This document shows, in pieces, positions 298 through 27,985 of a stretch of DNA of 35,003 bases. Position numbers and translations under genes: made by a program. Every line of letters begins with the position of its first letter. Within the stretch, counting starts at the first letter, position 1. The notes beneath the pieces were generated by a model, which ran no database searches, was not told the origin of the DNA, and worked only from the letters and a program-made list of their open reading frames with translations. The stretch covers positions 119,736 to 154,738 of the forward strand of contig JAHFLD010000003.1 of assembly GCA_023245035.1 (NCBI GenBank), given 5' to 3'. The stretch is from Candidatus Harrisonbacteria bacterium (lineage in GTDB: Bacteria > Patescibacteriota > Minisyncoccia > UBA6257 > 1-14-0-10-40-38).

Positions 298-2346
298 ATG
301 CGCCTGGTAATTGTTGAATCACCCACGAAGGCAAAAACCATAGCTAAATTTTTGGGACCCGAATATCGGGTGGAATCTTCCTATGGTCATATCCGCGACT
401 TACCCAAGAGCAAGCTGGGGGTTGATGTTGACCATGATTTTTTGCCGGGTTATGTGATTCCGACTAAGGCGCGCAAGGTGGTGGCTTTACTCAAGAAGCT
501 CACGGCGAAAAGCGACGGGGTGGTGCTGGCGTCGGATGAAGACCGCGAAGGAGAGGCTATTGCTTGGCATTTGGCGTCTGCCTTGGGGCTTGAGAAGCCG
601 CAAAGAATTGTTTTTCACGAAATTACCAAGTCCGCGATTGACAATGCCATGGCCAATCCGCGGGATTTGAATCTGGCTTTGGTTGATGCTCAACAGGCTC
701 GGCGGGTGTTGGATCGTTTGGTGGGCTACAAGCTTTCGCCGTTTTTATGGAAAAAGGTGGCCAAGGGACTTTCCGCTGGTAGGGTACAATCGGTGGCGTT
801 GCGCTTGGTGGTTGATCGGGAGCACGAGATCCGCAGTTTTATTCCCCAAGAGTATTGGTCGCTGACCGCGCATTTTGTCGCGGACGGCAAAGAATTTGAG
901 GCGGCATTGGCCAAGATTAACGGTGAAGCGCTCGACAAGTTCGCGATTCACAACGAGGCCGAAGCCGCTAAAATTGTTAAGGCCCTCGAGGGCGGAAAAT
1001 TTGTCGTTGCCAACTTAGTTCAAAAAGAGAGTAGAAAGAATCCACTCCCGCCGTTTATCACGAGCACCTTACAGCAGGAGGGGGCGAAACGTTTGGGATT
1101 TTCGGCGAAGAAGACGATGATGTTGGCCCAGCGTCTTTACGAGAGCGGGCATATAACCTACATGCGCACCGATTCGGTGAATCTTTCGCGTGAGTCGGTG
1201 GCCGCGGCGCGCGACTGGCTGGCGGATAATTTTGGCGCGACTTATGCTTTGCCCGCGCCGCGACTTTTTAAAAATTCTTCAAAACTCGCGCAGGAGGCGC
1301 ACGAGGCGGTCCGTCCGACTAATATTGGCGCGACGACTGATAGCATCGCGCTTGCCGAACCAGCCGAGCGGAAGCTTTATGATTTGATTTGGCGCCGGTT
1401 TGTGGCCTCACAGATGCCACAGGCGGTGTTTGATACGGTGTCGGTGGACATCACCTCGGGGCAATACTTGTTTCGGGCGAATGGCGCCACGATGAAGTTT
1501 GATGGTTTTTTGAAGGTTTGGTTGCAAAAATTTGAGGAGCATTCCATTCCCGAGCTTGCGGTGAATCAGATCTTGCCGCTTAAGGCTTTGGTGCCGTTGC
1601 AACACATGACTGAACCGCCGCCGCGTTATTCGGAGGCCAGTTTGATCAAAACTTTGGAGGAGTATGGCGTGGGGCGTCCTTCGACTTACGCCCCGATTAT
1701 TTCGGTTATCTTGGCGCGCAATTATGTGCGTCGGGAGCAACGCCGTTTTTTTGCCACCGAAATCGGTGAGCTGGTGACCAAGGTTTTATTGGAGAACTTC
1801 CCCAAAATTGTTGATGTGGCGTTTACCGCCGAGATGGAGAAAAAATTGGATACCATTGCCGACGGGGAGACTCCATGGGTTGGAGTTATTCGCGATTTTT
1901 ATGATCCATTCGCGGTACTCTTGGCGGAAAAATATGCCGCGGTGGAGAAGGTCCATCCCGAAGAAGCGACTAATGAAATTTGCGAGAAATGCGGCAAGCC
2001 GATGGTGATTAAATTTGGCCGGTTTGGAAAGTTTTTGGCTTGTTCCGGTTTTCCCGAATGTAAAAACACCAAGTCTTTGACGGCCAGCGGAGAGAGGGAG
2101 AAGTTGGAAAATCCGGGAGTAAAATGTCCCAAATGCAAAGAGGGGGAGGCGGTGACCAAGCGAGTAAATCGGGGCCGGGCGAGGGGCAAGTTTTTTTGGG
2201 GATGCAGTCGATATCCGGATTGTGATTTTGCCACCTGGGAAAATCCGGCGGGAAAGTCGGCCGAGCAATTGGAAAAAGAACTGGCGGAGGCTTTGGCTAA
2301 ACCGCCCAAGGTGCGGGCTTCACGGCAAAAAAAATCCCAGAAGTAG
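298..2346 (+). CDS. topA: DNA topoisomerase I (type IA)
   Basis: N-terminal TOPRIM MRLVIVESPTKAKTIAKFLG, active site YMRTDS, C-terminal zinc ribbons CEKCGKPM...CSGFPECKNT and CPKCKEG...CSRYPDC. Confidence 0.97.
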   Translation: MRLVIVESPTKAKTIAKFLGPEYRVESSYGHIRDLPKSKLGVDVDHDFLPGYVIPTKARKVVALLKKLTAKSDGVVLASDEDREGEAIAWHLASALGLEKPQRIVFHEITKSAIDNAMANPRDLNLALVDAQQARRVLDRLVGYKLSPFLWKKVAKGLSAGRVQSVALRLVVDREHEIRSFIPQEYWSLTAHFVADGKEFEAALAKINGEALDKFAIHNEAEAAKIVKALEGGKFVVANLVQKESRKNPLPPFITSTLQQEGAKRLGFSAKKTMMLAQRLYESGHITYMRTDSVNLSRESVAAARDWLADNFGATYALPAPRLFKNSSKLAQEAHEAVRPTNIGATTDSIALAEPAERKLYDLIWRRFVASQMPQAVFDTVSVDITSGQYLFRANGATMKFDGFLKVWLQKFEEHSIPELAVNQILPLKALVPLQHMTEPPPRYSEASLIKTLEEYGVGRPSTYAPIISVILARNYVRREQRRFFATEIGELVTKVLLENFPKIVDVAFTAEMEKKLDTIADGETPWVGVIRDFYDPFAVLLAEKYAAVEKVHPEEATNEICEKCGKPMVIKFGRFGKFLACSGFPECKNTKSLTASGEREKLENPGVKCPKCKEGEAVTKRVNRGRARGKFFWGCSRYPDCDFATWENPAGKSAEQLEKELAEALAKPPKVRASRQKKSQK

Positions 2347-2356
2347 CTTCTGGGAT
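2327..2356 (-). terminator. Rho-independent terminator of the minus-strand gene 2364..2909
   Basis: Stem ATCCCAGAAG (2334-2343), loop TAG (2344-2346), CTTCTGGGAT (2347-2356); A8 tract 2327-2334 is a U-run on the minus strand. Confidence 0.85.
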
Positions 2357-2363
2357 GAGAGAT

Positions 2364-2909
2364 CTAGCTATCGCGGGAGCGAGTGGCTTCAAAGGCCGCT
2401 CGGATGTTTTGATACACTTCCGAACTAACGGCGGGGACGTTGGGATTGCTTTCTTGTCTATGCGATTCGGATTCGGCATTTTGAGGAAGGTTCAAGAGTT
2501 CTGATGGGGAATAGATCAAGCGAAGACCGCCGCTTGATGCCTTGAGGCGAAAATGAGACAGGCGAGCGAACGCTACCTTGAGGACGTAGGCATTGTAGAT
2601 GATATCTTCGGTTTCCTTGACTCTGATTGGACCATTCTCAAACAGCTCTCGCCACGCTTCGGGATAAAGCCACCAGTGGCCGATTTCGGCGAGAACACTG
2701 CGCTGAATTGCTTGCTCTACGGTTTCAAACGGCGGCTCGACTTCGCCAACCACCGTTTCTTCGTACCATTCGGGGTATTCTTGAAATTCCGTAAAGTTGG
2801 TATTCCACTCGCCTCGTTTTTGGAGAATAGCAAAGAGACTGGATTTGCCGTTTACATCTGTCCTGGCGGTCATAATGACCACCGAAACTCTGGTCTTTTT
2901 GTGAACCAT
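2364..2909 (-). CDS. Nudix-like protein with degenerate Nudix box
   Basis: GEVEPPFETVEQAIQRSVLAEIGH resembles Gx5Ex7REUxEExGU; strong minus-strand terminator immediately downstream. Confidence 0.5.
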   Translation of the reverse strand: MVHKKTRVSVVIMTARTDVNGKSSLFAILQKRGEWNTNFTEFQEYPEWYEETVVGEVEPPFETVEQAIQRSVLAEIGHWWLYPEAWRELFENGPIRVKETEDIIYNAYVLKVAFARLSHFRLKASSGGLRLIYSPSELLNLPQNAESESHRQESNPNVPAVSSEVYQNIRAAFEATRSRDS

Positions 2910-5666: not shown

Positions 5667-5738
5667 GCGCCCTTAGCTCAGTGGTAGAGCGTTTCATTGA
5701 CATTGAAAAGGTCGGAGGTTCGATCCCTCCAGGGCGCA
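5667..5738 (+). tRNA. tRNA-Val(GAC)
   Basis: GCGCCCT...AGGGCGC-A acceptor; anticodon stem TTTCA-TTGACAT-TGAAA; T-arm GGAGGTTCGATCCCTCC; full CCA not encoded (CCT). Confidence 0.93.
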
Positions 5739-5749
5739 CCTAGATTATA

Positions 5750-5770
5750 AAATACCTTTAAGGTATTTTT
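5750..5770 (+). terminator. Rho-independent terminator after tRNA-Leu/tRNA-Val
   Basis: AAATACCT-TTA-AGGTATTT followed by TT. Confidence 0.6.
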
Positions 5771-5779
5771 AGTCTTATA

Positions 5780-5866
5780 CTGGAGGGATCGAACAGTGGA
5801 GGGGGTCGAGGACCGCGTTTGGTCTCCCGTGTTGGAGATTATCCAGAACCATCGGTTCTGAAAAGA
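5780..5866 (+). other. tRNA-associated structured element, copy A
   Basis: CTGGAGGGATCGAAC (5780-5794) is the exact reverse complement of tRNA-Val 5718-5732; then AGTGGAGGGGGTCG, imperfect hairpin GGACC..GGTCTCC and perfect hairpin CAGAACC-ATC-GGTTCTG; aligns with copy B. Confidence 0.65.
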
Positions 5867-5967
5867 GAATTGCCACGTTTCGCTTCGGTTGGCGACTAAT
5901 TGGTATTTAATTTTTGGACTAAAAACGAATTGGCGATTTGGTATTTTTTGGGAAGTTTTTTAATCGT

Positions 5968-27778: not shown

Positions 27779-27798
27779 TGGTGTCCCCGCGAGGAATC
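27779..27798 (-). pseudogene. Displaced tRNA-Arg 3' end with encoded CCA
   Basis: Minus strand GATTCCTCGCGGGGACACCA; 17/18 match to the 3' end of tRNA-Arg(CCT) (27913-27930). Confidence 0.7.
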
Positions 27799-27896
27799 TC
27801 ACGCGCTTTGCTTTTAGAAACCGACGGTTTCTAATCTCTTCCTGAACGGGAAACCGCAGGCGGTTTCCCGACCCCTTCCACTGTTCGATTCCTCGC
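27789..27896 (-). other. tRNA-associated structured element, copy B
   Basis: Minus strand GCGAGGAATCGAACAGTGGAAGGGGTC-GGGAAACCGCCTGCGGTTTCCC-...-TTAGAAACC-GTC-GGTTTCTAA-...-GATTCCTCGC; ends are a 10-bp inverted repeat; first 14 nt are the exact reverse complement of the tRNA-Arg T-arm. Confidence 0.7.
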
Positions 27897-27913
27897 AAGA
27901 AATTTACTATTTG

Positions 27914-27985
27914 TGCCCCCGCGAGGAATCGAACCTCGATTTTTTCCTTAGGACGGAATTGCTCTATCCATTGAGCTACAGGGGC
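27914..27985 (-). tRNA. tRNA-Arg(CCT)
   Basis: GCCCCTG-TA-GCTCAATGGATAGAGC, anticodon loop GTCCTAA, T-arm CGAGGTTCGATTCCTCG, CGGGGGC-A; CCA not encoded. Confidence 0.93.

Follow-up and report, generated by a model that had tools for sequence, protein, structure and literature searches.

Integrative elements that target tRNA genes, such as genomic islands and tyrosine-integrase phages, insert into conserved gene ends, bring a replacement end, displace the old one and form tandem arrays. The element described here resembles them in each of these respects. It lies behind the tRNA-Arg(cct) gene of a Candidatus Harrisonbacteria bacterium, within a 35,003-nt stretch of contig JAHFLD010000003.1 that we analyzed as a whole and refer to as the window; the target gene end has been restored, the old end displaced, and empty sites exist. 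It differs from such systems in measuring ~100-200 bp, in having no integrase, in placing one core at dozens of targets and in carrying an inverted copy of its target. We consider it probable that the tRNA-Arg insertion belongs to a Patescibacteria family of mobile elements that are very small and non-coding.

A displaced tRNA-Arg end and its empty site

The initial annotation drew attention to minus-strand positions 27798-27779 (GATTCCTCGCGGGGACACCA), of which 17 of 18 bases agree with the 3' end of tRNA-Arg(cct), and re-reading of the sequence bore this out. The reported spacing of 132 bp is exact when counted from the gene's own GATTCC (27930), CCA is indeed encoded in the displaced copy only, the gene itself reading GCAC followed by AAATAG, and the single mismatch (G to A) disrupts the C2:G71 pair in the displaced copy. 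The duplicated tRNA-Arg end is real, and a chance match is excluded because the arrangement recurs behind 78 tRNA genes with displaced copies specific to their own tRNA. Read along the minus strand, tRNA-Arg(cct) is followed by AAATAGTAAATTTCTT and GCGAGGAATCGAAC; an 80-nt stretch containing two hairpins comes next, and GTGA and GATTCCTCGCGGGGACACCA complete the series at 27779. The inverted T-arm copy, the two conserved hairpins and a second, decayed copy behind tRNA-Val had been overlooked.

An insertion had been proposed, with the prediction of an empty site holding one tRNA end, and this is what three genomes of the same family contain: in L026 (G003), L280 (G002) and L281 (G001) the divergent tRNA-Ser(cga)/tRNA-Arg(cct) pair is conserved, and only one 3' end of tRNA-Arg is present. 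In L026 the tRNA-Arg end and its flank read GGGCACCA followed by CAATCTGACTTT; the counterpart in the window is the displaced end, GGGGACACCA, with the same old flank, CAATCTGACTTT, directly after it. The displaced CCA end is therefore the original one, and the CCA-less end arrived with the insertion, an argument that rests on flank and synteny as the L026 tRNA body differs from that of the window at many positions. The insertion thus turned the 3' end of this tRNA-Arg from CCA-encoded to CCA-less.

Target-matched arms and a structured core

In every complete copy the gene body is followed, in this order, by X1, a flank, X-inverse, the core, X2 and the old flank, where X1 is the working gene end, X-inverse the opening 10-17 nt of X copied in inverted orientation, and X2 the displaced gene end. 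The short flank after X1 often holds a terminator hairpin, near-perfect in many copies, and the core, about 80-100 nt with two or three hairpins, closes with GTGA or GTTC immediately ahead of X2.

Both arms are matched to the gene at which they stand. X-inverse corresponds, as a reverse complement, to its own tRNA from position 53 up to about 61-67, and across 78 copies it fits that tRNA in 92% at position 57 (54% for other isotypes), 92% at position 59 (34%) and 83% at position 63 (30%), the fit fading at positions 67-68. X2 agrees with its own tRNA at 91-99% of positions 61-73, other isotypes agreeing mostly at 26-52% and reaching 80-87% at the near-invariant positions 61-62. When the two gene ends disagree, it is X1 that X-inverse nearly always follows, and the idea that it merely pairs with X2 was rejected on these grounds. 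In many copies a single long hairpin is formed by X1, flank and X-inverse, where a portion of the anti-acceptor stretch tends to be absent or changed. We also rejected the notion that anti-T arms are native to tRNA trailers, as most supposedly core-free tRNAs with such an arm carry a core that the regular expression had missed or one of a different kind.

A sequence search with the window locus matched the inserted part elsewhere in this genome and in related genomes, where inspection revealed the same unit behind tRNA-Met (L009), tRNA-Arg(gcg) (L010) and many other tRNAs. A covariance model built from seven copies and comprising three helices (R2), which replaced an earlier RNAalifold-based model with only 12 pairs (R1), found the core in 114 of 246 genomes of the order, with up to 15 copies per genome; from the wider phylum, 18 of the 196 sampled genomes contain it. 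The genome of the window holds about 11 credible core copies, including the unit behind tRNA-Val, which spans 5741-5888 of the window. A pattern scan of species genomes matched at least 120 stretches; among the matches listed, nearly all were titled Patescibacteria, Parcubacteria or related candidate phyla, or were untitled bacteria, and one was labelled Bacteriovorax, which may be a binning error. The core had no match in viral contigs. Against Rfam, the window gives only tRNAs at the gathering threshold and a strong copy gives nothing near threshold, and no description of the element was found in the open-access literature, a search that left subscription papers and preprints outside its scope.

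Table 1. Features of the two element copies in the window
Feature	Position	Strand	Remarks
tRNA-Arg(cct), intact	27913..27985	minus	ARAGORN and Rfam tRNA model, 62.2 bits
X1, restored 3' end without CCA, last ~21 nt of tRNA-Arg	27934-27914	minus	
Short A/T-rich flank AAATAGTAAATTTCTT, new relative to empty site	27897..27912	minus	not present after the tRNA in L026, L280, L281
X-inverse GCGAGGAATCGAAC, perfect reverse complement of tRNA-Arg positions 53-66	27883..27896	minus	pairs with X1 or X2 in folds
Conserved core, 80 nt	27803..27882	minus	R2, 64.1 bits, E 1.5e-14
Hairpin P2 CGGGAAACCGCCTGCGGTTTCCCG, flanked by conserved GGGGTC and GTNNNGGAA	27847..27870	minus	covariation in 91 copies
Hairpin P3 TTAGAAACCGTCGGTTTCTAA	27814..27834	minus	covariation in 91 copies
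X2, element end GTGA and displaced original tRNA end GATTCCTCGCGGGGACACCA with encoded CCA	27779..27802	minus	
tRNA-Val(gac), host gene of second copy	5667..5740	plus	
X-inverse CTGGAGGGATCGAAC, perfect reverse complement of the tRNA-Val T arm	5780..5794	plus	
Decayed core behind tRNA-Val, X2 lost	5795..5888	plus	R2, 20.9 bits, E 0.0099

Among 91 distinct copies, standard pairs fill 95.4% of pair cells, and 20 of the 25 pairs have two-sided changes; such changes occupy 258 cells, compared with 65 in shuffles, and no shuffle does as well. These figures are inflated by an alignment fitted to the model, and the outer helix, P1, pairs target-derived arms. Structures slid along the alignment as a control collapse, and P2 and P3 alone show many two-sided changes. 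In these two helices G:T mispairs slightly outnumber A:C, by 12 to 4, a balance that weakly favors RNA of the tRNA-sense strand; the scarcity of wobble pairs would be compatible with single-stranded DNA as well.

The targets are chiefly tRNA genes, with 78 of the 91 copies directly downstream of a tRNA on the same strand and at least 36 isoacceptors represented. The insertion point is almost always in the T loop; at L088 the core lies in the 5' half of a tRNA-Leu. Protein genes are hit at either end: EF-G at its 3' end (L143, L152) and 5' end (L093, L275); LepA (L205, L241), a GTPase (L089) and RNase H (L108) at the 5' end; and ribosomal proteins S9 (L177, L229, L246), L33 (L172), L7/L12 (L253), L11 (L062) and S10 (L190), as well as MnmA (L079) and an ABC-2 transporter (L225), at the 3' end. 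In those copies outside the T loop that were examined, the gene is complete and its displaced end is found on the far side of the core. The dominance of translation genes may stem from their strong conservation or from their high expression.

Several loci show variations of this organization. Behind rpsI (S9), L246 carries two tandem copies (2144-2383, minus strand), each with its own duplicated gene end, and tRNA-Pro(cgg) in G026 (L019/L114) is followed by two tandem elements with different terminators, the first core in L019 looking circularly permuted in comparison with other family members. A second core type, CGGAGC...GGTGCC.AGACC, has the same succession of X1, flank, inverted arm, core and X2 in L026 (814-902, minus strand, and downstream), at tRNA-Ser(cga) in L005 (1052-1139) and at tRNA-Ala(ggc) in L008 (1647-1718); the window's orthologous tRNA-Ser is without it. 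Two more unrelated cores in the same arrangement, at tRNA-Arg(tct) in L074 (857) and tRNA-Leu(cag) in L036 (711), suggest that the mechanism does not depend on a particular core. One copy (L099, 601-715) has no tRNA upstream of it; its arms form a ~20-bp palindrome of a tRNA-Met-like end, and it is possibly a travelling form or a relic. The upstream flank of L045 holds, at positions 2610-2744 of the search query, a separate dispersed repeat of ~135 bp (GCCCCTATAGCTCCCTCCTTCGCTC...) that is found many times over in several genomes of the same order.

Mobility, mechanism and alternative explanations

Mobility of the element is well supported. In G243 the cores at tRNA-Met and tRNA-Val are identical and in G149 those at tRNA-Tyr and tRNA-Leu are 98% identical, with differing arms and flanks in both cases. 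Cores of the same isotype from different genomes resemble each other no more than random pairs do, and a separate element lineage for each tRNA was therefore rejected. Further empty sites are found at tRNA-Leu (G169 compared with G170) and at fusA, where G159, G017 and G056 have an uninterrupted rpsG-fusA junction that is occupied in G153 and G160. The copy in G153 is a recent insertion: the fusA start is present twice, X1 equals X2 over 66 nt as a perfect target duplication, and the inverted arm GCGTCTATGTGC agrees exactly with that genome's own codons. At L082, L087, L060 and L077 the tRNA end is duplicated together with 43-61 nt of flank, and these few cases support a duplication of 60-80 bp of target by a new insertion. 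Wherever an empty site allows comparison, the native flank is the one behind X2. At L143, X1 and X2 of EF-G are identical over 63 nt and then encode EGKRR* in different synonymous codons; therefore, the last part of X1 comes from another lineage.

Copies thus combine a structured core with direct and inverted arms matched to the target, the same core stands at different genes, having moved between them without its arms, and empty sites exist. Beyond this, we infer a folded single-strand intermediate, template switching for the inverted arm and spread by recombination. In such a model the core would travel as a folded single strand of RNA or DNA, one end of which would be attached to the target where X begins, or primed from it there, and at the other end the polymerase would switch template and copy back over the target, generating the inverted arm, with the enzyme acting in trans. 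Insertions into essential genes would survive because the target duplication restores the gene. Copies may then pass between species by ordinary homologous recombination in the conserved gene, carrying the donor's gene end and flank with them, and this would account for the usual difference between the two flanks.

Several observations weigh against this model. The flanks after X1 and X2 differ in most copies, a simple target duplication being directly visible in few (L082, L087, L060, L077 and L275). The identical cores with different flanks in G243 could also have arisen by gene conversion of the core among older copies, and some of the cases with the same flank could be truncated tandem copies (L014, L025, L040, L102). 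No enzyme accompanies the element either: PF00589 is without a match in G149 (98% complete, 7 copies) and G160 (93%, 12 copies), and among 20 mostly copy-rich genomes IS110 (PF01548) and Cas1 (PF01867) occur in none, the Y1 transposase (PF01797) in only six, that of the window not being one of them, and a reverse transcriptase (RVT_1) in 11, including that of the window, and not in the other nine. None of the four candidates PF00589, PF01548, PF01867 and PF01797 is consistently present, and they were rejected or are not supported. There is no open reading frame within the element, and a long form bearing one, sought through distant copies of the tRNA end, yielded only two distant matches. The mobilizing enzyme could come from another organism or belong to another family, which is compatible with these tests.

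The alternative that fares best, though we regard it as unlikely, is a host regulatory RNA in which the core acts as a sensor and X-inverse pairs either with X1, unfolding the tRNA, or with X2 across the core, freeing it. The hairpins formed by X1, flank and X-inverse reach -40 to -50 kcal/mol in many copies, pairing of X-inverse with X2 encloses the core, and the inverted arm remains complementary to the working tRNA. Such a role is difficult to reconcile with copies that are scattered and differ between close relatives, with a range of targets that takes in at least 36 isoacceptors and both ends of protein genes, with the apparent terminator preceding many copies, or with decay by deletion, as in L132 (G008), which comparison with L112 identifies as a deletion derivative of the copy in G129.

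It is improbable to a somewhat greater degree that the element is a conventional tyrosine-recombinase integrative element with a T-loop att site, reduced to its ends. The likeness noted in the initial annotation holds in that the gene is restored and the old end displaced, and the T-loop target and tandem arrays add to it; our analysis adds that no tyrosine integrase fits and that the element belongs to a large family whose targets extend beyond tRNA genes. Tyrosine recombinases (PF00589) occur in 222 of the 246 genomes, mostly once, this single copy presumably being Xer, and G149 and G160 are without a match. The targets (tRNA T loop, tRNA-Leu D arm, EF-G, S9) have no sequence motif in common, identical cores stand at different targets, and the inverted arm is left unexplained.

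Equally hard to sustain, and in our estimate very improbable, is an integron-like cassette, in which the folded core would be a single-strand site of attC type and the cassette a gene end with its terminator. The attC consensus is RYYYAAC...GTTRRRY, which the hairpin base AATCGAAC...GTTCGATT resembles, and tandem units occur (L014, L019, L025). Against this, the arms are target-specific rather than constant, the GTT motif is missing at the junction of several non-tRNA copies, the crossover is without G/TT at EF-G and L11, and there is no consistent tyrosine recombinase, a judgement on integron integrases for which the general family model PF00589 was the only gauge. A last possibility, for which repeated flanks in some copies speak, is that tRNA genes underwent local tandem duplication or template switching with no mobile element involved; it can practically be dismissed, being already refuted by a conserved core with covarying structure that is common to unrelated genes and genomes.

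Comparison with known mobile elements

The element fits none of the mobile-element families tested. Miniature inverted-repeat transposable elements (MITEs) and REP/RAYT systems are likewise small, non-coding, hairpin-rich, multi-copy and presumably mobilized in trans, whereas the element here has no constant terminal inverted repeats, targets gene ends and copies a terminal arm from its target; moreover, its target duplication is about 60-80 bp rather than short and fixed as in MITEs, and no Y1 transposase accompanies it consistently, in contrast to REP/RAYT or IS200/IS605. Integron attC cassettes share the folded hairpin with inverted base motifs and the tandem units, but our element has target-specific arms, no cargo gene and no integrase that we could find. 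In the bridge-RNA systems of IS110/IS1111 a structured sequence also lies beside a target-complementary stretch; here that stretch differs at every site, and the 20 genomes hold no IS110 recombinase. A variable, long target duplication with an odd junction at one end recalls target-primed retroelements such as long interspersed nuclear elements (LINEs) and group II introns, yet no reverse transcriptase is linked to the element and nine of the 20 genomes have none. Integration of casposon or CRISPR type is set apart by the lack of Cas1 in the same genomes.

Rewriting of the arms to match each target is not performed by any of the mobile-element families tested here and therefore points to an unknown insertion enzyme. 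For annotation, the displaced ends could be taken for tRNA fragments. We tentatively propose, as a possibility that falls a little short of an even chance, a new class of protein-less mobile element, in which a folded nucleic acid of ~100 nt inserts at the ends of conserved genes, copies its target in both directions, which lets the gene survive, and gains a fresh target-complementary arm at each landing. If this is true, the element explains the extra ends on tRNA and ribosomal genes of many Patescibacteria and stands among the smallest mobile elements known.
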